In this document: positions 31,493-46,809 of the stretch, in pieces
Numbering within the stretch: position 1 is the first letter of the stretch
How the letters are laid out: each line of letters begins with the position of its first letter
Origin: Sphingomonas sp. LR60
GTDB lineage: Bacteria; Pseudomonadota; Alphaproteobacteria; Sphingomonadales; Sphingomonadaceae
DNA: 64,000 nt
Assembly: GCF_036855935.1 (NCBI RefSeq)
Contig: NZ_JASPFK010000001.1
Location: 1,213,501-1,277,500, forward strand
Direction: 5' to 3'
Notes under the pieces: generated by a model
The model's input: only the letters and a program-made list of their open reading frames with translations
Databases searched by the model: none
Told to the model about the DNA's origin: nothing
Translations under genes and position numbers: made by a program

Positions 31493-33832
31493 TCACCTCA
31501 GCACTTCAGTCAGTGCGTCGGCAAGTTCGCTGCTCCGGAATGGCTTCGTGATGCGGGGCACGGCCGGATCGATGCCTTCCGCTTCAGCATAACCCGAGAC
31601 GATCAATGCCGGCAGATCAGGTCGAATTTCTTTCAGGGCCTTGATCAATTGGGCGCCGGTCATCCCCGGCATGAGGTGATCTGTGACAAGGAGTTCCGGG
31701 GCTAGGCCGTCGCGCACCATCTGCAGAGCCGTTTCCCCTAACGCTGCCTCGACCACGTCGTAGCCGAGGTCTGAGAGCATGTGCGCCGTGCTCATGCGCA
31801 CGAGGTCTTCGTCATCGACCAGCAGGATCAACCCCTTCGCATCGGCGCCCCGTTCAGCGGCGTGGGCGGATCGCTGCTCGGCCTCGGGGAGATCATGACC
31901 GACGCGCAACCAGAGCGCGACCGTGGTTCCCACGCCGAGCGCGCTGTCGATCGTCAGCGCGCCTCCCAGTTGCGCCGCGAGCCCGTGGACCATCGACAGG
32001 CCTAGCCCCGTGCCCCTGCCGATCCCCTTGGTCGAGAAAAACGGCTCGATCGCGCGTGCGCGCGTCTGCTCGTCCATGCCGGTCCCGGTGTCTCTTACGC
32101 TGATCCGTACATAATGGCCACGCGACAGTCCGGGCCGCGCGTCCCTGACCGACTCGCGCGACACCTCGATCGTCAGGTTCCCACCATCGGGCATGGCGTC
32201 GCGCGCGTTCACCGCCAGGTTCAGGAGCGCCATCTCCAGCTGGTTGGCATCGGCCTTTGCCACCGGCAGTTCGGAAGCCGCCTGAAATCGTACCGCGATC
32301 GTCGGCCCCAGCGTCGACCCGATCAGGTCGAGCATCCCCTCAACGAGTTGCCGCACGTCGACGGCCATTGGCTGAAGCGGCTGGCGGCGGGCGAATGCCA
32401 GCAGACGTTGAACGAGCGTCCGGGCCCGCTCGGCCGACTGCAACGCGCCGTCGATCAGCCGTCGCTCCCGCTCCGAGCCGAGACCCTTGCGGTTCAGCAG
32501 ATCGAGCGATCCGACGATCGGGGTCAGCAGATTGTTGAAATCATGCGCGACCCCGCCGGTCAGGCTGCCCATCGCCTCCATCTTCTGGCTCTGTCGCAAG
32601 GCTTCCTGCGCCGCCTGGAGTTCCGCTTCGCGCGTCTTGGCGAGGGTAAGGTCACGGCCGACCGCGATGAAATTGGCGCCATTGGCTTCCGGCGCGACCA
32701 TCCATTCGATCCATTTCCAATCGCCGTCACGCGTGGCGATCCTGTTCTCGAACCGCGTCGGCTGTCCCGTTTGCGCCATGGCCTCGATTGCGGCGAGCGT
32801 GGGCGGCTTGTCGTCGGGGTGCATGAAGGTGGCATACCCGCGCGACAGCAGTTCGTCGCTGCGCCAACCCAGCACCCAGGTCCATGCCGGACTGACCGCC
32901 GACATCATCCCTGTGTAATCCGCGCGCGCCAGCATGTCCTGCGACAGGTTCCAAAGGCGGTCCCGCTCGGCCGAGCGGACGGCGACCTGCACCTCGAGCG
33001 TCTGGTTCAGTTCCTGAAGGCGCAATTCGGCATTCCGGCGCGCCGTGATGTCGTTGAACAGCACCGCTACACGATGGCTGGCGGGATCGCCGATGCGAAA
33101 GGCATGCACGTCCCACCACCGCTTCAACGTGGCAGAGCCTTCCTCCACCCGGCCGGGGACGCCCGTTTTGGCGATCTGCCCGTAGAAGTCGAACCAATGC
33201 TGTTCATGGTTGGGCACGATCTCGCGCACCCGGCGACCGGCCGGCTGGAATCCGGCCTGCTGTTCGAACGCGGGGTTCGCTTCGTTGAAGCGATAGTCGA
33301 CCGGGTGACCCGCGTCGTCGAAGATCATGTCGATGATGCAGAAACCGACCTCGATATTTTCGAACAAGGTGCGGTAGCGCGCCTCGCTGTCCTGCAACGC
33401 CACCAGCCGCGCACGCGCGTCATATTGACGGCGTCGTGCCCGCACCGCGGAACGGACGATGCTGATCAGCGTCGTCGGATGGAAGGGGCGCTCGAGGAAC
33501 GTGACGTTGCCCAATACCTCCAGATGGCGTGCCGCGGCGGGATTACGCTCCAGCCCGCCACCGCGGCTGGTGAGGAGGATGAACGGTAGATCGGACCATT
33601 CCTCCTGACCGCCTAGCCATGACGACAGCGCGGACAGGTCGGCAGTCGCGATCGCTTCCTCCGTCACGATGACAAGGGCGGCGCCCTTGTCGAGCTCGGC
33701 GACCAGATGAGCCAGGGAGGTGCAGGCAGCGGTCTCGAGATTTGCTTCGGCCAGCATCGCGCCTGCCAGGGACGCGTCGCGACCGCGCGGTGCGAGGACG
33801 AGGGCACGTTCCGAAACGGTAGATCGCTTCAC
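31493..33832 (-). CDS. Hybrid sensor histidine kinase / response regulator with PAS domains
   Basis: 779 residues. Order: an N-terminal receiver-like domain (about 8-130, lacking a clear phospho-acceptor Asp), a PAS domain (about 150-265) and a second PAS/PAC domain (about 295-405, ending WKWIEWMVAPEANG). Then come HisKA with HDFNNLL near residue 427, HATPase with NLAVNARDAMPDGG and GTGLGLSMVHG, and a C-terminal receiver (ILLVDDEDLVRMSTAHML, phospho-Asp in LLVTDHLMPGMTG near residue 714). No membrane segment is seen, so it is a soluble sensor. Its GTG start overlaps the stop of the KaiC-like gene by four bases (GTGA), implying translational coupling and a shared pathway. Confidence 0.94.
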   Translation of the reverse strand: MKRSTVSERALVLAPRGRDASLAGAMLAEANLETAACTSLAHLVAELDKGAALVIVTEEAIATADLSALSSWLGGQEEWSDLPFILLTSRGGGLERNPAAARHLEVLGNVTFLERPFHPTTLISIVRSAVRARRRQYDARARLVALQDSEARYRTLFENIEVGFCIIDMIFDDAGHPVDYRFNEANPAFEQQAGFQPAGRRVREIVPNHEQHWFDFYGQIAKTGVPGRVEEGSATLKRWWDVHAFRIGDPASHRVAVLFNDITARRNAELRLQELNQTLEVQVAVRSAERDRLWNLSQDMLARADYTGMMSAVSPAWTWVLGWRSDELLSRGYATFMHPDDKPPTLAAIEAMAQTGQPTRFENRIATRDGDWKWIEWMVAPEANGANFIAVGRDLTLAKTREAELQAAQEALRQSQKMEAMGSLTGGVAHDFNNLLTPIVGSLDLLNRKGLGSERERRLIDGALQSAERARTLVQRLLAFARRQPLQPMAVDVRQLVEGMLDLIGSTLGPTIAVRFQAASELPVAKADANQLEMALLNLAVNARDAMPDGGNLTIEVSRESVRDARPGLSRGHYVRISVRDTGTGMDEQTRARAIEPFFSTKGIGRGTGLGLSMVHGLAAQLGGALTIDSALGVGTTVALWLRVGHDLPEAEQRSAHAAERGADAKGLILLVDDEDLVRMSTAHMLSDLGYDVVEAALGETALQMVRDGLAPELLVTDHLMPGMTGAQLIKALKEIRPDLPALIVSGYAEAEGIDPAVPRITKPFRSSELADALTEVLR

Positions 33833-35331
33833 GCCTCGTCACCGTCCAGAAGATCGTTCACGCCGTGCAGGGTAGGCACGCCACGCAAGACGCCCTGGAA
33901 CTGCGTCAGCGGGTTGCCGAGCGTGATACCGTTGCTGCCGATCTGATACTCGCGGATGGTGTTCTCGTGAGGGCCGGTGCGCTTCTTCACGATCGAGATG
34001 GCGCGGCGAACCCGGCCCAGCGCTTCGAAATAGCGGAGCAGAATGACCGTGTCGGCCAGATAAGTCACGTCGACGGGGGTCTTCATATCGCCCACCAGCC
34101 CATGCTGAGCCACCGTCAGGAAGGTCGTCGCGCCCTGTCGATTGAGATATTGCAGCAGTTCGTGCAGGTGAAGGATCAGCGCCTGCTCGCCCGGCATCGC
34201 CGCCTGATAGCCGTTGAGGCTGTCGACGATCACGGTCTTGGCCCCATATTCCTCGACAGACTGACGCACGCGCGCCGAGAATTCGCCCGGCGACAGCTCG
34301 GCGGCATCGACCTGCTGCAGCAACAGCTTGCCGCCATCGACCATGGCCTGAAGATCGAAGCCGAGTCCCAATGCGCGTTGGATCAGCAGCCCGACTTCCT
34401 CGTCAAAGACGAACATCGCCGCACTTTCGCCGCGGTCGACCGCCGTCTGGATGAACGTCAGCGCGATCGAGCTTTTGCCCGTTCCTGCCGGACCCAGCAT
34501 CAGAACGCTCGACCCGCGCTCGATCCCGCCGCCGAGCAACTGGTTGAGTTCGTCCGACTGCGTGGTCAGCACGTCGCGGGAAAAGCTGGTCCGGTGCTCG
34601 GACGATACGAGGCGTGGATAAATCCGGAGGCCGCCCGTCTCGATCGTCGCGTCGTGGTAGCCACCGCGAAAATGTCGACCCCGATATTTGATGACGCGCA
34701 GGCGTCGACGCTCCGATCCATATTCGGGGGCAAGTTCCTCCAGCCGGATGACCCCATGCGCCACCGAGTGCACCGTCTTGTCGTTGGCATCGGTGGTCAG
34801 ATCATCGAGCATCAGCACCGTCGCCAGGCTCTTGGCGAAATAATGCTTCAGCGCGAGGATCTGTCGCCGATAACGTAGCGAACTCTGCGCGAGCAGGCGG
34901 ATCTCGGACAGGCTGTCGATGACGACGCGCTGCGGCTTCACCCGCTCGAACGCCTCGAAGATGCGCTTCGTGGTCTCGCCAAGCTCCAAGTCGGAGGAAT
35001 AGAGCAGGCTTTGCTGCTGGTCCTCATCAAGCAGGTTCTCCGGCGGGATCAGTTCATACAGCTCGACCCCGGCGAGATCCCAGCCGTGTGCCTGCGCAGA
35101 GGCACGCAGTTCATCCTCGGTTTCCGATAGCGTCACATACAGGCAGCGTTCCCCCGCCACTGCCCCGGTCATCAAGAACTGAAGCGCAATCGTCGTCTTG
35201 CCGGTTCCCGGGCTGCCTTCGAGAAGGAACGTACGTGCCCGTTCCAGCCCGCCTTTGAGAACATCGTCCAGGCCACGCGTGCCGGTCAGGGCATCGTCTG
35301 TCGCAAGAGAAGGCAACCGAATTCTCCCCAC
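33829..35331 (-). CDS. KaiC-like tandem RecA-domain ATPase
   Basis: 500 residues with two RecA/KaiC domains. Domain 1 has Walker A GSPGTGKTT at residues 39-47 and VVIDSLSEIRLLAQ. Domain 2 has Walker A GPAGTGKSS near residue 280 and VIVDSLNGYQAAMPGE. The layout matches CI/CII of KaiC, although no kaiA or kaiB gene is nearby. The annotated GTG start (35331) is uncertain: GGGGAG then TTG at 35316 would give a protein five residues shorter. The gene is coupled to a soluble hybrid histidine kinase downstream. KaiC homologues outside cyanobacteria are linked to stress signalling; that role here is inference. Confidence 0.9.
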   Translation of the reverse strand: MGRIRLPSLATDDALTGTRGLDDVLKGGLERARTFLLEGSPGTGKTTIALQFLMTGAVAGERCLYVTLSETEDELRASAQAHGWDLAGVELYELIPPENLLDEDQQQSLLYSSDLELGETTKRIFEAFERVKPQRVVIDSLSEIRLLAQSSLRYRRQILALKHYFAKSLATVLMLDDLTTDANDKTVHSVAHGVIRLEELAPEYGSERRRLRVIKYRGRHFRGGYHDATIETGGLRIYPRLVSSEHRTSFSRDVLTTQSDELNQLLGGGIERGSSVLMLGPAGTGKSSIALTFIQTAVDRGESAAMFVFDEEVGLLIQRALGLGFDLQAMVDGGKLLLQQVDAAELSPGEFSARVRQSVEEYGAKTVIVDSLNGYQAAMPGEQALILHLHELLQYLNRQGATTFLTVAQHGLVGDMKTPVDVTYLADTVILLRYFEALGRVRRAISIVKKRTGPHENTIREYQIGSNGITLGNPLTQFQGVLRGVPTLHGVNDLLDGDEA

Positions 35332-39148: not shown

Positions 39149-39496
39149 TCAGGCCGCGTCCGCAAGCGGGAGAGGGCGAGCGAGCAGGATGCGCTCGCCC
39201 TCCCGCCGCACCGCCAGCGTCGGGGTGCAGCCATGGTCGGCACCCTGCGCCTGGCCGCTTGCCAGCGCGATCCGCCAATTGTGGAGCGGGCAGGCCACCG
39301 CATGGCCGTGGACGATGCCCTGGCTGAGCGGGCCGCCCTTGTGCGGGCACCGGTCAACCAGCGCGAAGACGTGATCGTCCACGGTGCGGAAGATGGCGAT
39401 CGGTGTGCCGTCCAGCGTCAGCGTGCGTGCGCCCTGCGTGGGAATATCGGCCAGCGTGCCGACGTCGAGCCAGTCCTGCATGATCGTCTCCGTCAT
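39149..39496 (-). CDS. nirD: Nitrite reductase small subunit
   Basis: 115 residues with a Rieske-like fold: VGTLADIPTQGARTLTLDGT, VDRCPHKGGPLSQGIVHG, VACPLHNWRIALASGQAQG. Unlike most NirD proteins from enteric bacteria, it keeps CPH and CPLH motifs, which could bind a [2Fe-2S] cluster. Its ATG overlaps the nirB stop (ATGA), so the two are translationally coupled. It forms the small subunit of NADH-dependent nitrite reductase with NirB and is followed 1 base later by nasA. Confidence 0.93.
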   Translation of the reverse strand: MTETIMQDWLDVGTLADIPTQGARTLTLDGTPIAIFRTVDDHVFALVDRCPHKGGPLSQGIVHGHAVACPLHNWRIALASGQAQGADHGCTPTLAVRREGERILLARPLPLADAA

Positions 39497-42009
39497 TGTG
39501 CCGTGACCAGCAGCGGCTGATGCAGATGCGCATCCTCGCCCGTGACGCGCTTCTGCCACGGGTCGTCCTGCATGAAGCGCTGCGAGAAGCGGAAGCGTGC
39601 GGCGAGGGCGGGGATGGCCTCGGGATCGTCGAGCAGGCTGGACTTGATATGGTCCATCCCGACGCGCTCGATCCACGGCGCGGTGCGCTCCAGGTAGCGC
39701 GCTTCTTCGCGATATAGCTGGATGAAGGCGGCGCAGACTTCAATCGCTTCCGCTTCGGTCGCGACCTTGCAGAGCAGATCGGTGGCGCGGACCTTGATCC
39801 CACCGTTGCCACCGACGTGAAGCTCGTAACCAGAGTCGACGCAGACGATCCCGAAGTCCTTGATCGTCGCCTCTGCGCAATTGCGTGGGCAGCCGGACAC
39901 CGCGATCTTGAATTTGTGGGGCATCCACGATCCCCACGTCATCTGCTCGATCTTGACGCCCAGACCGGTCGAATCCTGCGTGCCGAAGCGGCACCATTCC
40001 GATCCGACGCAAGTCTTCACCGTACGCAGCGACTTGCCATAGGCGTGGCCCGACACCATCCCCGCGGCGTTCAGGTCGGCCCAGACCGCGGGCAGATCCT
40101 CCTTCTTGATCCCGAAGATATCGAGCCGCTGGCCGCCGGTCACCTTCACCATCGGCGCGTCGAACTTCTCGACCACGTCGGCGATCGCGCGCAGCTCCCG
40201 CGGGTTGGTCAGGCCGCCCCACATGCGTGGCACGACCGAATAGGTGCCGTCCTTCTGAATATTGGCATGCATCCGCTCGTTGACGAAGCGGCTCTGCTGG
40301 TCGTCCTTATACTCGCCGGGTAGCGCGCAGAGCAGGTAGTAATTGAGCGCCGGGCGGCAGGAGGAACAGCCGTCGGGGGTCGACCAATGCAGCTTGTGCA
40401 TCACCTCCGGGATCGAGCGCATGCCTTGCGCGACGATCTCGCGACGGACGTCGTCATGGCCGAAGCTGGTGCACTTGCACATCGTCTTCACGGTGCGCTC
40501 GCCGCCGTAATCCGCGCCGAGCGTGATCGACAGCAATTGTTCGACCAGCCCGGTGCAGGACCCGCAGGATGCCGAGGCTTTGCAGGTCGATCGTACCGCG
40601 TCGAGGCTGATCGCGCCGTCGACGATCGTCTGGCAGACCTTGCCCTTGGTCACGCCGCTGCAGCCGCAGATCTCGGCATCGTCCGAGAGCGCCGCAACGG
40701 CCGCCTTAGGGTCCGCATGCCCACCTCCGGAGGCGAAGGCTTGGCCGAAGATCAGCACGTCGCGGATGGCGGAGACGTCCTCGCCCCTCTTCAGCAGATC
40801 GAAATACCAGCTGCCGTCCGCGGTATCGCCGTACAGGACCGCGCCGACGATCCGGTCGCCGCGCACCACGACGCGCTTGTAGATGCCGCGGCTGGCATCG
40901 CGCAGCACGATGTCCTCTGCGCCATCGCCGCCGGCGAAATCACCCGCCGAGAAGACGTCGATCCCCGACACCTTCAGCTTGGTGGAGGTGACCGAGCCGC
41001 GATAGCCGCTGTGCCGGTCGACCAGGCCGTCGGCGAGGCTTCGGCACATGTCCCACAACGGCGCGACCAGTCCGTAGATCTGACCGTCATGTTCGACGCA
41101 TTCGCCGACCGCGAGCACGTCGGGGTCGGACGTGACCATATGATCGTCGACCTTGATGCCGCGCCCCACCTCAAGTCCGGCGGTGCGGGCGAGTGCGGTG
41201 GCGGGGCGGATGCCAACCGCCATGACGACAAGGCTGGCGGGAACCAGCGTGCCATCGGCCAGCCGAACGCCCTCCACCTGCCCATCGCCGACGATCGCGG
41301 CGGTGTTCGCCTCGGTCAGGATCACCTGACCGCGCGCCTCAAGCGCGGTCTTGAGCAACCAGCCCGCCGCTTCGTCGAGTTGCCGCTCCATCAGCGTCTT
41401 GGCGAGGTGGATCACCGTCACCTTCATGCCGCGTAGCGACAGGCCGTGCGCAGCCTCCAGCCCGAGCAGCCCGCCGCCGATCACCACCGCATCGCCACCT
41501 CTATCGGCTGCGGCCAGCATGTGATCGACGTCGTTCATGTCGCGGAAGGTGATGACGCCGGGGAGGTCCTTGCCCGGCACCGGAATGATGAACGGATCGG
41601 ACCCGGTGGCGAGGAGCAGCTTGTCGTAGCCCACGCTGCGCCCCGATCGCGCGGTCACCACTTTCGCCACGCGGTCGATCGTCTCGATCGGATCGCCCGC
41701 GATCAGCTCGATCCCGTGGTCGGCGTACCAGTCGTGGCCGTTGATGACGATGTCGTCGAAGGTCTTCTCACCCGCCAACACCGGGGAGAGCATGATGCGA
41801 TTGTAGTTCACATGTGGTTCGGCGCCGAAGATCGTGACGCGGTAGCGTCCGGCATCGCGCGCGAGCAATTCCTCGATCGCGCGGCAGCCCGCCATGCCGT
41901 TGCCGACGACCACCAGATGCTGGCGATCGGGGCGGGAGGAGCGATCGTCGAGCGCGGAGGGCTCTAGCGCCTCCTCGAAATCGACCTTTGCAAAGCCTTC
42001 GAAGTCCAT
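39493..42009 (-). CDS. nirB: NADH-dependent nitrite reductase large subunit
   Basis: 838 residues. Order: N-terminal FAD/NAD-binding oxidoreductase (HLVVVGNGMAGCRAIEELLA, LATGSDPFIIPVPGKDLPGV, DAVVIGGGLLGLEAAHGLSL), a BFD-like [2Fe-2S] region (EICGCSGVTKGKVCQTI, CKASASCGSCTGLVEQLL), the ferredoxin-like half domain, and the siroheme/[4Fe-4S] site (CVGSEWCRFGTQDST and SGCPRNCAEATIKDFG). It reduces nitrite to ammonium with six electrons from NADH. The start at 42009 follows CGGAG and a leader with an intrinsic terminator and ANTAR-type hairpins. Siroheme for it would come through cobA at the end of the operon. Confidence 0.96.
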   Translation of the reverse strand: MDFEGFAKVDFEEALEPSALDDRSSRPDRQHLVVVGNGMAGCRAIEELLARDAGRYRVTIFGAEPHVNYNRIMLSPVLAGEKTFDDIVINGHDWYADHGIELIAGDPIETIDRVAKVVTARSGRSVGYDKLLLATGSDPFIIPVPGKDLPGVITFRDMNDVDHMLAAADRGGDAVVIGGGLLGLEAAHGLSLRGMKVTVIHLAKTLMERQLDEAAGWLLKTALEARGQVILTEANTAAIVGDGQVEGVRLADGTLVPASLVVMAVGIRPATALARTAGLEVGRGIKVDDHMVTSDPDVLAVGECVEHDGQIYGLVAPLWDMCRSLADGLVDRHSGYRGSVTSTKLKVSGIDVFSAGDFAGGDGAEDIVLRDASRGIYKRVVVRGDRIVGAVLYGDTADGSWYFDLLKRGEDVSAIRDVLIFGQAFASGGGHADPKAAVAALSDDAEICGCSGVTKGKVCQTIVDGAISLDAVRSTCKASASCGSCTGLVEQLLSITLGADYGGERTVKTMCKCTSFGHDDVRREIVAQGMRSIPEVMHKLHWSTPDGCSSCRPALNYYLLCALPGEYKDDQQSRFVNERMHANIQKDGTYSVVPRMWGGLTNPRELRAIADVVEKFDAPMVKVTGGQRLDIFGIKKEDLPAVWADLNAAGMVSGHAYGKSLRTVKTCVGSEWCRFGTQDSTGLGVKIEQMTWGSWMPHKFKIAVSGCPRNCAEATIKDFGIVCVDSGYELHVGGNGGIKVRATDLLCKVATEAEAIEVCAAFIQLYREEARYLERTAPWIERVGMDHIKSSLLDDPEAIPALAARFRFSQRFMQDDPWQKRVTGEDAHLHQPLLVTAQ

Positions 42010-42029
42010 GGGTCAATGCTCCGGAAACG

Positions 42030-42081
42030 AAAAAGGCCGCCATGCGGACGCTGGTGAACCCAGCGCCTGCATGGCGGCCTT
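42030..42081 (-). terminator. Intrinsic terminator in the nirB leader
   Basis: On the minus strand AAGGCCGCCATGC (42081-42069) pairs perfectly with GCATGGCGGCCTT (42045-42033), a 13-bp stem. Its loop can itself fold (CGCTGG with CCAGCG), and UUUUU follows at 42034-42030. It ends 20 bases before the nirB ATG, so uncontrolled transcription should stop before nirB. The 5' arm overlaps the P2 hairpin of the proposed NasT target. Confidence 0.85.
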
Positions 42082-42238
42082 GCCATCATCGTGAGCGGTA
42101 GCGGACGAGCCGCTGACCGAGCGATGCGCCGTCCGCATCCAGCATTGGAGCGGCCAGCCTGTGATCGACGGGCATCGTCGCCCGATCGAAAGAGAAGATG
42201 CCGTGATTCGCCGCGACCTGCAAGAGCCTTCTCGCAGG
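42071..42238 (-). promoter_or_regulatory. Putative NasT (ANTAR) antitermination leader before nirB
   Basis: Two hexaloop hairpins are visible on the minus strand. P1 (42238-42217) has stem CCTGCGAG/CTTGCAGG and loop AAGGCU. P2 (42086-42071) has stem ATGGC/GCCAT and loop AAGGCC. Both loops have A at position 1 and G at position 4, the known ANTAR-binding signature. P2's loop and 3' stem are the 5' arm of the terminator, so P2 and terminator exclude each other, as in NasT, EutV and AmiR systems. P1 and P2 are about 130 bases apart, longer than usual, which is the weak point. The leader begins 11 bases after the porin stop. Confidence 0.6.
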
Positions 42239-42248
42239 CGCAGCATCG

Positions 42249-43454
42249 TCACAGCGTCCAGTCGGCCTGCAACCACAATTTCCGCGTGTCGGTGGCGAAG
42301 CGATCCGCCTGGTAATCGGCATAGCGGACCGATAGCGCGGTCCGCCCGACCTTGGCGGAGGCGAGCAGGTCGAGTTCGTCGCCGTAGTGGCGGACCAGCC
42401 GGTCGCTGTCGAACCGGTGGTAGCTGGCCTGCAGTGCGATCGTCCCCAGTCGTGATCCCGTCTTCAGGCCATAGCCGACATTGCTGTACAGGTCGCGGAC
42501 GCCATCGGGCGGGGTGGTCAGGAATTTGTCCGCCCATCCCTGAAACTTGAAGGCGGTGGCGAGCGGCGTCTGGAACGAGGTCAACGCAGCGCCGCGATTG
42601 GCGCCTAGCACCTCAAATCCGCCGCCGACTTTCAGTGCGGACAGTGCGAGCGCGGCGTCGGCCAGATAGTAATAGGCCCGGTAGCGGTTGGGATTGCGGT
42701 GCCAATCCTGCTGACGCGCGTAGCTGAGCTGATAGCTGAGCTTCGCAGTCTGCGAGAGGGTGATGCCGCCGCCGAAACGCCCGCCATAGGTCTGGCTCGA
42801 CAGGCGAAATGCCTGCACCGCGGCCTCGTCCTGATCGACGAGATAGGCAAAGGCGGTGAGCGTGCCGAGCCGGGTCTGGTAGCCGAGATTGACGAACACG
42901 TTGTCGCCGGACACCGACGGTTGCCGTGCCCCGCGTCCGTCGATCCCCCAGATCGTCCGCTGCGCCCAGGCGTAGGTGAGGTCTGCCTTCACATGCGGCG
43001 CGGGCGCGATCTCCGCGCGGACGGCGTCGAACGTTTGGCCGTTGTCGCGAAACGCGATCGCGCCGACGAACCGTTCGTCATCCAGCGCGATCCGCTGTCG
43101 CCCGGCGGTGAGCGCATATCCCTTTCCGGCGTAGCGGACTTGCGCCCGATATAGCGCGACATTCTGCGGATCGGCCACCAGCGGTCGGGTCTGCGCGCCG
43201 TGGAGTCCGTCGTAGTAACGGTCGACCACCGCCAGCGTGCCCTGTGCCTCGACCAACGCCGACAGGCCGCTTGCCTTCGCCTCGACGCCGGTGCGGAGCC
43301 GGAGGGTGAGTGCGTCGGCGTCGTCGGCGATGCCGTCCTGCGTGGCATATTCGTAGCGGGTGCGGGCGTCGACCAACGGTGTGAGCGTGACGGTCTGCGC
43401 GCACGCCGGCCCAGCGACGACCAGTGCGGCCGCCGTTGCGATCAGTTTCTCCAT
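42249..43454 (-). CDS. Alginate-export-family outer-membrane porin, probable nitrate porin
   Basis: 401 residues with a signal peptide (ATAAALVVAGPACAQ). Alternating hydrophobic beta strands run through the mature part (LTLRLRTGVEAKAS, YALTAGRQRIALDDERFVG, RLGTLTAFAYLVDQD), and the C-terminus is WLQADWTL. This matches the alginate export (AlgE-like) porin family. Position between narK and nirB in a nitrate operon indicates a channel for nitrate or nitrite rather than alginate (inference). It is translated between the two terminator-bearing leaders, so its expression depends on the narK leader but not on the nirB leader. Confidence 0.85.
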   Translation of the reverse strand: MEKLIATAAALVVAGPACAQTVTLTPLVDARTRYEYATQDGIADDADALTLRLRTGVEAKASGLSALVEAQGTLAVVDRYYDGLHGAQTRPLVADPQNVALYRAQVRYAGKGYALTAGRQRIALDDERFVGAIAFRDNGQTFDAVRAEIAPAPHVKADLTYAWAQRTIWGIDGRGARQPSVSGDNVFVNLGYQTRLGTLTAFAYLVDQDEAAVQAFRLSSQTYGGRFGGGITLSQTAKLSYQLSYARQQDWHRNPNRYRAYYYLADAALALSALKVGGGFEVLGANRGAALTSFQTPLATAFKFQGWADKFLTTPPDGVRDLYSNVGYGLKTGSRLGTIALQASYHRFDSDRLVRHYGDELDLLASAKVGRTALSVRYADYQADRFATDTRKLWLQADWTL

Positions 43455-44765: not shown

Positions 44766-44793
44766 AAAAAGGGTTTGTCCTTGCACGGCAAAC
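44766..44793 (-). terminator. Intrinsic terminator in the narK leader
   Basis: On the minus strand GTTTGCC (44793-44787) pairs with GGaCAAAC (44779-44772 region, one bulged A), followed by CCUUUUUG at 44770-44766. It ends 15 bases before the narK ATG, with the CGGAG ribosome site just after the U-run, the same layout as in the nirB leader. Confidence 0.65.
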
Positions 44794-44841
44794 GCCACTG
44801 GCCGCCTCTCCCGATCGGGAAGGCGGTCAGCGGCTTTGCTG
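44787..44841 (-). promoter_or_regulatory. Putative NasT (ANTAR) antitermination leader before narK
   Basis: P1 (44841-44828, minus) is CAGC-AAAGCC-GCTG, a 4-bp stem with a hexaloop having A at position 1 and G at 4. The loop closely resembles the nirB-leader loops AAGGCU and AAGGCC. A P2 candidate (44806-44787) is GGCGGCC-AGTGGC-GTTTGCC, again A1/G4, but its stem has one C-U mismatch and two G-U pairs. P2's 3' arm is the 5' arm of the terminator. A stronger GC hairpin (CCGCCT with AGGCGG) competes in the same stretch. Support is weaker than for the nirB leader. Confidence 0.45.
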
Positions 44842-44956
44842 GCGAAATCGATGGGGCTGCCCACCCGCGCTGGCGCGGCATCCCGGCTGAACCCGCTGCG
44901 TCGCGGATCAGGACCGAAAGCTGACCGAAGTCGCGTTTCTTCGCAAGTGCAAAATA

Positions 44957-46177
44957 TCAGATGTGGTCAGTGCCGATGCGATAGGTGCGCAAATAGCCGG
45001 CAACATCCGCGGGATCGAACACGGCGCCGTCGAAGAACCGATCCGGCCCCAGCGTCAGTGCGCCCCGATACGCACCCACGGGCATCGGCTGCGTCACCGC
45101 GCCTTCCAGCTTCAGGCTCGCGCCCGGCATCGGTTCACCCATGTCGACCAGCGCACGGCGATAGATGTCGGAGCGGAAAACCTCGGCCGCCTGCCGTTCG
45201 TTATCCGGGCTGGCGGTGATCATCCTCCATCGGACCAGCTGCGAATAGATCCACAGCGCTTGGCTGCGCCACGGGAACCCAGCGGCCTCGCGATGGAACA
45301 GCAACGCGTCGGGCACATCGACGGTGCTTTGATCGGCACTCAAGGTCAGCCGACCCGAAAGCGCAGGCAGCAACGCCGAAGCCGGTTGCCCGACATATTC
45401 GTCGCGGGCGAGCAGCTCAGCCAGCTCTTCACGGTTGGCGGGATCGTCGCACCAGGCGGCCGCCGCGGTGAGCGCCTGAAGCAGGCGGTCGACGACGTCG
45501 GCGTTCGCCTCCATCCAGTCGCGGCGCATCGCCAGCACTTTTTCGACGCCACGCTGCCAAATGCACGGACCGAGCGCCACGGCCTCCGCCAGACCTTCGC
45601 CGATCGCGATGCTGCCATAGGGCTCGCCCGCGATGAAGCCGTCGATCTCGCCGGTGCGTAGCGCTTCCGCCATCAGCGACGGGGGCAGGACGCGCAGCGT
45701 CACGTCGCGATCGGCGTCGATCCCGGCATAGCCGAGCCAATATCGCAGCATCAGCGCGTGGCTGGAGAAGCGGTGGACCACGCCGATGATCGGCTTGCGA
45801 TGGTACAAGCCGATCGCGGCGGCGAAGTCGTGCGCGCTGCCGACCGGATCGGCGGTGCGCCGGATCACGTCGGGGTCGAGGGCGGCGGCGAAACCGCCCG
45901 CCATCACCAGCATGTTGCCGTTGATGTTGAGCTTAAACGGCGCGGCGATCGCCGCGGGATGCTGGCTGAGCCCCAGCGTTACCGCGATCGCGAGTGGCGC
46001 CAGCATGTGCGCGGCCTGAACCTGACCGAACACCAGGCGGTCGCGCACCGTCGCCCAAGATGTGGTGCGCACCAAGGTGAGATCGATGTCGCGCTCGGCG
46101 GCGAAGCCCTTTTCGCGCGCGCTGACCAGCACCGCGCTGTCGGTCAGCGGCAGGAAGGCGATCGCCAGCGGCGTCAC
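44957..46177 (-). CDS. nasS: Nitrate/nitrite sensor NasS (NrtA/CmpA-like)
   Basis: 406 residues of the NrtA/CmpA periplasmic-binding-protein fold: AREKGFAAERDIDLTLVRTT, VFGQVQAAHMLAPLAIAVTL, GEIDGFIAGEPYGSIAIGEG. There is no signal peptide; the fold starts at residue 3. This fits the cytoplasmic sensor NasS rather than a transport component. NasS binds NasT in the absence of nitrate or nitrite and releases it when ligand is present. The GTG start overlaps the nasT stop (GTGA), giving coupled, stoichiometric synthesis, as expected for a sensor-regulator pair. Confidence 0.9.
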   Translation of the reverse strand: MTPLAIAFLPLTDSAVLVSAREKGFAAERDIDLTLVRTTSWATVRDRLVFGQVQAAHMLAPLAIAVTLGLSQHPAAIAAPFKLNINGNMLVMAGGFAAALDPDVIRRTADPVGSAHDFAAAIGLYHRKPIIGVVHRFSSHALMLRYWLGYAGIDADRDVTLRVLPPSLMAEALRTGEIDGFIAGEPYGSIAIGEGLAEAVALGPCIWQRGVEKVLAMRRDWMEANADVVDRLLQALTAAAAWCDDPANREELAELLARDEYVGQPASALLPALSGRLTLSADQSTVDVPDALLFHREAAGFPWRSQALWIYSQLVRWRMITASPDNERQAAEVFRSDIYRRALVDMGEPMPGASLKLEGAVTQPMPVGAYRGALTLGPDRFFDGAVFDPADVAGYLRTYRIGTDHI

Positions 46178-46809
46178 GCGCCACCTCCCAGCAGCCCGGC
46201 CGCGGTGATCAGCGCCTCCGCGACGTCGACGATGCGCCGGTTCTGATTCATCGCGGTCGAGCGCAACAGCGCATAAGCGTCGGGTTCCGACAGGTTGCGG
46301 CTGGTCATCAGGATGCTCTTCGCCTTGTCGATCGTCTTGCGGTCCGCAAGCGCGGTGGTCGCCTCGTCGAGCGCCGCCTGCATACGGGCGAAGGCGTTGA
46401 AGCGGCGGATGGCGAGGTCGATGATCGGTTTGACGCGCTCCTTGCGCAGCCCGTCAACGACATAGGCCGATACGCCCGCATCGATCGCGGCGCCGATCAT
46501 CGTATCGTCCGACCGGTCGACGAACATCGCGATCGGCCGGGCCAGCGCGCGGCTGACCACGAGCATCTCTTCCAGCGTATCGCGGCTGGGATCGCCAAGG
46601 TCCATCAGCACCACGTCGGGCGCCATCCGCTCCAGTCGCGCGACGAAGGCGCCACGCGGCGGCACGACATGGATGTCGTCATAGCCCGCCTCCCGCAATC
46701 CCTCTTCGAGAACGGTCGCGCGAAGGCCGGTATCGTCGATGATCACGATGCGCAGGATGTTCCCGAAGCCTCCTTGCGCCGTTCTGATTGCTGCGCCTGC
46801 GAACGTCAA
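46174..46809 (-). CDS. nasT: ANTAR-domain RNA-binding antiterminator NasT
   Basis: Up to 211 residues. A pseudo-receiver domain (LRIVIIDDTGLRATVLEEGL, DVVLMDLGDPSRDTLEEMLV) is followed by an ANTAR helical bundle (LADRKTIDKAKSILMTSRNL, SEPDAYALLRSTAMNQNRRI). The ANTAR core, with AKSILM, the Tyr of DAYALLR and the Ala-Met-Asn run, is intact. The start is uncertain: TTG at 46809 gives a 17-residue non-homologous extension, whereas AAGGAGG at 46775-46769 precedes a CTG at 46755 that would give MRIVIIDD. NasT binds two-hairpin leader RNAs and prevents termination. It is the first gene of the nitrate locus, and both proposed targets lie downstream. Confidence 0.92.
   Translation of the reverse strand: MTFAGAAIRTAQGGFGNILRIVIIDDTGLRATVLEEGLREAGYDDIHVVPPRGAFVARLERMAPDVVLMDLGDPSRDTLEEMLVVSRALARPIAMFVDRSDDTMIGAAIDAGVSAYVVDGLRKERVKPIIDLAIRRFNAFARMQAALDEATTALADRKTIDKAKSILMTSRNLSEPDAYALLRSTAMNQNRRIVDVAEALITAAGLLGGGA

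Follow-up and report, generated by a model that had tools for sequence, protein, structure and literature searches.

The nitrate cluster of Sphingomonas sp. LR60 raises the question of how transcription of nirB is controlled, and whether nirB-nirD-nasA-cobA is switched apart from the narK-porin part that precedes it. An initial annotation had proposed an internal attenuator of the ANTAR type, placed between the porin gene and nirB within one transcript. The window, that is, the whole 64,000-nt stretch of DNA analysed here and numbered from its first base, carries on its minus strand, in this order, nasT, nasS, narK, the porin gene (Pfam Alginate_exp), nirB, nasA (molybdopterin oxidoreductase) and cobA (tetrapyrrole methylase); nirD, which lies between nirB and nasA, was assigned by visual inspection alone. 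The genes central to the argument are:

39493-42009, minus strand: nirB, assimilatory nitrite reductase large subunit, the controlled gene (Pfam NIR_SIR, Pyr_redox_2, Fer2_BFD)
44957-46177, minus strand: nasS, NMT1-like binding protein, presumed nitrate/nitrite sensor (Pfam NMT1_2)
46174-46743, minus strand: nasT, receiver-like plus ANTAR, presumed RNA-binding antiterminator (Pfam ANTAR, E 1.8e-19; Response_reg just below the cut-off)

This nasT is the single ANTAR match (PF03861 search) in the LR60 genome. Of 61 related genomes, LR60 itself among them, 22 have a NirB match with an E-value no worse than 1e-100. PF03861 was searched for in 24 of these 61, and within the genus an ANTAR gene is present in 18/18 nirB-bearing genomes (own included) and in 0/6 tested genomes lacking nirB. 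The NasT/NasS proteins of the genus are of two kinds, type II, with NasT 82.5-84% identical to that of the window (three loci, two genomes), and type I, with 57.5-63% identity (15 loci). Sphingomonas sp. TDK1 was seen to carry two type II nasT-nasS-narK-porin-nirB-nasA clusters in one genome (L112, L132), with both of the leaders described below in each. Just downstream of cobA, a gene at 33829-35331 (minus strand) has two P-loop stretches and, by eye, resembles KaiC.

Hairpins and terminator in the porin-nirB gap

The 239-nt gap between the porin gene and nirB is strongly structured (fold z -6.0 against dinucleotide shuffles, 0/200 shuffles as good). Its elements are as follows, with loop bases given by position (G4 is G at loop position 4):

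42163-42189, minus strand: hairpin H1, hexaloop GACGAT (G1, G4), assigned from the fold, the conservation of loop G4 and pair counts
42128-42158, minus strand: hairpin H2, hexaloop AATGCT (A1, G4), about 6 nt downstream of the H1 stem
42087-42126, minus strand: spacer hairpin HX, with closing helix CATCG/CGATG, one nucleotide downstream of H2 and abutting H3
42071-42086, minus strand: hairpin H3 (P2 of the initial annotation), ATGGC-AAGGCC-GCCAT, hexaloop AAGGCC (A1, G4), proposed antiterminator hairpin
42030-42081, minus strand: intrinsic terminator with U tail (stem 42081-42033), its 5' arm formed by the loop and 3' arm of H3

The terminator had been described as a 13-bp stem with a U5 tail 20 bases before nirB, and this is what is found: the arms AAGGCCGCCATGC and GCATGGCGGCCTT form 13 outer base pairs around an inner 8-bp stem, two T of the T5 tail pair with two A, and 20 nt lead to the nirB ATG (42009). 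The sharing of its 5' arm with the ATGGC/GCCAT hairpin likewise holds, through the loop and 3' arm of H3, so that H3 and the terminator are mutually exclusive. The nascent chain is predicted to fold as H1-H2-HX-H3 at 120 nt and as H1-H2-HX-terminator at 160 nt. H1 and H2 lie inside the 130 bases that the initial annotation had treated as the spacer between its two hairpins, and both of their G4 hexaloops were missed there. Loop to loop, H1 and H2 are 33 nt apart, and H2 and H3 65 nt, because the 40-nt HX stands between them and makes up 40 of the 41 nt of linker. H1, H2 and H3 provide the tandem arrangement of an ANTAR target (at least two hairpins with 6-nt loops on stems of at least 3 bp), and all three carry G4; A1 in both loops of a pair is found for H2 and H3, but not with H1, whose first loop base in the window is G. 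The Rfam ANTAR/NasT match that the initial annotation had looked to did not materialise: the whole 64-kb window has 0 Rfam matches at gathering score, and the 15 sub-threshold matches on 41950-42300 all belong to unrelated families, nine of them microRNAs matching the long terminator hairpin.

Conservation was followed in close relatives of the window NasT. A scan of named genomes listed 80 of 240 type II loci, on which the type II gap and leader counts given here rest; most are labelled Sphingomonas, Sphingobium, Novosphingobium or Rhizorhabdus, and together with the window they yield 76 readable nirB gaps and 78 readable narK gaps. A hexaloop A..G[CT]C overlapped by a terminator occurs in 71 of the 76 nirB gaps (window included) and 75 of the 78 narK gaps among the loci listed, so the overlap of P2 and terminator proposed initially is kept across relatives. 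H3 was picked by this loop pattern, and its A1 and G4 are therefore no independent evidence. The element was not found in the nirB gaps of five type II loci among those listed (L067, L071, L087, L101 and L130); in L101 a long inverted repeat was seen by eye in place of the leader. Within 400 nt before nirB no hexaloop-terminator element was found in any of the 15 type I loci, where the previous long reading frame ends near nirB or overlaps it.

The 71 listed nirB leaders comprise 15 of a long type (window included) and 56 of a short type. The loops of H1 and H2 were not selected by sequence, and G4 is present in 71/71 for each (15/15 long, 56/56 short), a count that does not amount to 71 independent cases since the compared leaders are related. 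Position 1 is freer: A1 is found in 13/15 long-type leaders in both loops, and the short type has A 45, G 10 and T 1 in H1 and A 42 and G 14 in H2. Control hexaloops (n=7147) have G4 in 33% and A1 in 18%. Moreover, a loop-agnostic scan for the strongest hexaloop in the 56 short-type leaders found H1 in 55 (G4 in 54) and H2 in 53 (G4 in 53). Covariation supports the same hairpins: in the short type 12/20 pairs are changed on both sides, covering H1, H2 and an outer H2 helix, and in the long type 4/17, covering H1, H2 and, via one pair, HX, with 0/500 shuffles as high in either case. HX has a counterpart in all 15 long-type leaders, where four pairs of its helix (columns 153-157/189-193 of alignment A1) form in 15/15 and the fifth in 7/15. 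In short-type relatives such as L139 the linker comes to about 6 nt when the outer GCC/GGC helix of H2 is taken as formed.

A second leader before narK

A further element of the same kind, missed by the initial annotation, precedes narK:

44790-44908, minus strand: second putative NasT leader, best genome match of model R2
44908-44891, minus strand: H1 of this leader, loop GACGCA
44879-44859, minus strand: H2, loop AGCGCG
44841-44828, minus strand: H3, loop AAAGCC
44837-44790, minus strand: terminator stem, without a clear U tract

Two covariance models were built. R1 (alignment A4) contains 48 of the 56 short-type nirB leaders, with the window excluded and near-duplicates dropped by eye; R2 (alignment A5) contains 68 of the 75 narK leaders, omitting the window, L094, L130, L136, L141 and the near-duplicates L082 and L131. 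On the 3.94-Mb genome the best R1 match is 42070-42186 (E 2.8e-4), the next standing at E 3.08, and with filters off over 6 kb the two best matches are a shorter version of the former, 42070-42146 (18.9 bits), and the narK leader, 44826-44909 (16.5 bits). R2 places the window narK leader first (E 6.2e-8) and the nirB leader second (E 0.035). Over 246 genomes of the order, R1 with stricter filters gave eight matches at E 0.001 or better. Other NasT targets in the genome were considered and rejected: the R1 match at E 3.08 (judged flagellar by eye) and the R2 matches at E 0.39 and 0.62 fall inside coding stretches, R2 having been checked below E 2.76.

In the 68 structurally aligned narK leaders G4 is present in 68/68 and H1 has G1 in 53/68; three H1 pairs and two H2 pairs change on both sides. 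A loop-agnostic scan of the 75 gives H1 with G4 in 34 of 73 found and H2 with G4 in 56 of 71 found, registers being unclear here because one-base stem shifts tie or another hairpin wins. The longest T run after the terminator stem is 6 in 62/75 listed narK leaders. The window narK leader was seen to keep H1-H3 (50.5 bits), its terminator stem being followed by GTTTGCC, with no T run directly after the stem; by this sequence, the terminator may be leaky. In type I loci the hexaloop-terminator pair before narK is found in 15/15. By a strict scan, nine of these have two more hexaloops with G4, located at -84 to -96 and at -48 to -58; L060 and L061 have one, at -35 or -37, and the other four have fewer or ambiguous ones. 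The initial annotation held that the nirB part is switched separately from narK-porin. A separate leader does precede nirB, but narK has its own of the same kind, so that each of the two units probably has a leader under the control of a shared NasT.

Across the class an ANTAR protein was found in 49/289 genomes (other Alphaproteobacteria and some sphingomonads), and 40 loci from these were examined. They contain 16 hexaloop-terminator candidates, nine of which are preceded at 18-26 nt by a second hexaloop with A1 and G4; two of the nine (L162, L170) have a third, and L148 and one L165 site show three if G1 is allowed. On these counts the pair is the more usual form across the class, and the triple is not unique to sphingomonads. 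In seven loci of other Alphaproteobacteria (L148, L153, L158, L168, L170, L171 and L174), leaders were seen by eye behind sigma54-like TGGCAC-N5-[CT]TGC sites, in contrast to the sigma70-like boxes at the window nirB leader.

The promoter-like element and the reach of the leader

Upstream of H1 lie a promoter-like element, which the initial annotation had not noted, and hairpin P1:

42218-42223, minus strand: -35 box TTGCAG of the inferred nirB promoter; CTTG invariant in 15/15 long-type leaders
42195-42200, minus strand: -10 box CATCTT of the inferred nirB promoter after a 17-bp spacer; A2 and T6 of the hexamer invariant in 15/15 long-type leaders
42217-42238, minus strand: hairpin P1, loop AAGGCT, a real inverted repeat whose hairpin is not conserved and which extends over the -35 box

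The predicted transcription start, at about 42189-42187, coincides with H1. A pattern CTTG..nAnnnT with a spacer of 16-18 bp (17 bp in 59 leaders), ending 13-15 nt before the H1 loop, occurs in 70/71 listed nirB leaders, the sole miss being L110, as against 48/3550 positions in the upstream DNA of the same loci; the pattern was defined after the alignments had been inspected. Before narK it is weaker (46/75, window included). The leader unit is also present in the 16/71 listed loci in which nirB follows narK without a detected porin gene. The nirB leader thus probably has a promoter of its own, TTGCAG-17-CATCTT, beyond an internal site alone, and a purely internal position within one transcript is not supported in the form initially claimed, though read-through into the leader could still occur. 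Inspection by eye showed a GCGA[AT]TC-like motif recurring between the -35 and -10 boxes of many promoters of nirB and narK (in the window, 42223-42195 and 44946-44918, minus strand), and a TTGCAnTGCAA-like palindrome near the start in the short type and upstream of the -35 box in the long type; these are possible operators of some regulator.

The upstream AAGGCU hexaloop of the initial annotation exists as a hairpin, CCTGCGAG-AAGGCT-CTTGCAGG (42238-42217), and 130 bases indeed separate it from P2. The reading in which P1 and P2, 130 bases from each other, serve as the sensing hairpins of an internal attenuator in a nasT-...-cobA transcript could draw on the 8-bp stem of P1 (9 with a G-U pair), on its A1/G4 loop and on the position of the porin stop, 10 nt from P1, so that read-through RNA would contain it. 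As a partner hairpin, however, P1 was rejected. Only 39% of cells are paired in 15 relatives, a value reached by 74/500 shuffles, and 142/500 reach its covariation score and 23/500 its number of pairs changed on both sides. An A..G.. hexaloop on at least 5 bp occurs in the equivalent stretch of just 5/71 listed loci (window included), the 3' arm of P1 doubles as the conserved -35-like box, and the R1 and R2 matches both end short of P1. With P1 unsupported as the partner, the unusual partner spacing of 130 bases loses its support too; H1 and H2, which lie with HX inside that stretch, are the more likely partners. We consider sensing through P1 and P2 highly unlikely; the A1/G4 attenuator of the ANTAR type, with nasT in the same cluster, is supported in kind, by the overlap of H3 and terminator in relatives, the G4 of H1 and H2 and the sole ANTAR gene, without P1 as the loop partner.

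An ordinary constitutive terminator after the porin gene, with hexaloops by chance, is slightly less credible still. A strong terminator alone would separate narK-porin from the nirB unit, but it would leave the covariation and the invariant G4 unexplained, with loops far from the control hexaloop composition; moreover, it sits between the proposed nirB promoter and nirB, where a constitutive stop would silence nirB. Far more likely is a combination in which nirB is transcribed from a promoter of its own through its own leader, and the same attenuator also controls read-through arriving from narK-porin. The porin gene precedes nirB in 55/71 listed loci, and with no clear U tract in the window narK leader, RNA reading through may be frequent here. 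A generic promoter/terminator pattern scan calls no other terminator between the porin gene and nirB; this weighs little, since the scan calls neither the promoter nor the terminator of the nirB leader itself. The combination is compatible with the NasT-controlled leader that we prefer, with overlapping chances, and we put it a little below even.

Proposed control and relation to known ANTAR systems

The hairpins, their conservation and covariation, the overlap of H3 and terminator, the promoter-like element and its register, the adjacency of nasT and nasS and the second leader before narK can all be read from sequence. On this basis the porin-nirB gap very probably acts as a leader through which NasT controls nirB-nirD-nasA-cobA by transcription attenuation, with its own sigma70-like promoter. 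NasT binding, nitrate control, loading order and promoter activity are extrapolated from work in other bacteria. In RNA starting at about 42188, H1 and H2 would form immediately, separated by about 6 nt, followed by HX and then by H3. Without nitrate or nitrite, NasS would hold NasT, the long terminator would displace H3 and transcription would stop before nirB. With nitrate or nitrite, NasT would be freed, dock on H1/H2 and then hold H3, so that the terminator could not form and nirB would be read. Counting against the model are the G1 of the window H1, an H2-H3 linker beyond the EutV range and the fifth HX pair, which fails in 8/15. The same holds for the relatedness of the compared leaders, the definition of the promoter pattern after inspection of the alignments, the generic scan that does not call the promoter, the short R1 match of 18.9 bits with filters off, and the nirB gaps in which no element was found (5/76 listed type II, 15/15 type I).

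The accepted model of ANTAR antiterminators has two hexaloops at a tight distance. NasT-dependent antitermination of the nirBD leader is reportedly known from nirBD-PA1779-cobA of P. aeruginosa (Romeo 2012). For P. putida, the NasT-controlled nirBD leader NalA is described as sigma54/NtrC-driven (PMC12830290). The Pseudomonas leaders, as far as these sources go, resemble that of the window in the type of target operon and in a leader RNA that stops transcription unless NasT binds, and differ in promoter, which looks sigma70-like in the window. For Paracoccus denitrificans nasA, two papers (PMC3795266, PMC5424462) describe nasTS upstream, a gap of about 200 bp with hairpins HI and HII, proposed termination and binding of NasT to the leader. 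There, one leader with two named hairpins lies between nasS and the structural genes, whereas the window has two leaders with three hexaloops each.

The eutP element bound by EutV in Enterococcus faecalis has G4 hexaloops, the last hairpin being overlapped by the terminator; eut linkers are 5-12 nt, and adding 20 nt abolished antitermination (PMC3369931, PMC8934654, as excerpted). In an actinobacterial survey, linkers of ANTAR hairpins are 2-25 nt (PMC8164766). The H1-H2 linker, of about 6 nt, is short but involves G1 in H1, and the 41 nt between H2 and H3, including the 40-nt HX, exceed the published range taken literally. The EutV element, as described there, has two hairpins with A1 in both, whereas the window leader has three, with G1 allowed in H1 and HX placed before H3. 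More than two hairpins are also seen in EutX, a dual hexaloop with one more G4 hexaloop that is said to titrate the ANTAR protein (PMC8934654, in part), and in PPE1-5' RNA, which has three predicted hairpins, binds the ANTAR protein PdtaR and is described as titrating it from other targets (PMC8131098, in part). As described there, these RNAs remove an ANTAR protein and, unlike the window leader, are not leaders of their own controlled gene.

A literature title search, covering largely papers outside subscription, found neither NasT leaders of sphingomonads nor a three-hexaloop attenuator. NasT antitermination of nirB leaders is known from Pseudomonas, and the variant here would consist in the three hexaloops, the tolerated G1 and the inserted hairpin. 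Tentatively, and with slightly more doubt than belief, we suggest that sphingomonad NasT acts on a three-hexaloop array, in which H1 (purine at position 1, G4) and H2 would be the loading platform for a NasT oligomer and H3 the switch, and in which the two leaders would make a two-gate nitrate regulon. Stacking would keep the ends close, which would allow HX to stand between platform and switch.

A third G4 hexaloop is kept in 71/71 listed nirB leaders, and a 15-member group adds a whole hairpin before the switch hairpin. Such natural variants make the recruit-then-transfer model proposed for EutV directly testable as to which hexaloop loads and which switches, and as to distance versus stacking. 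Furthermore, they widen the search pattern for ANTAR RNAs beyond the A1 pairs sought in the surveys consulted.
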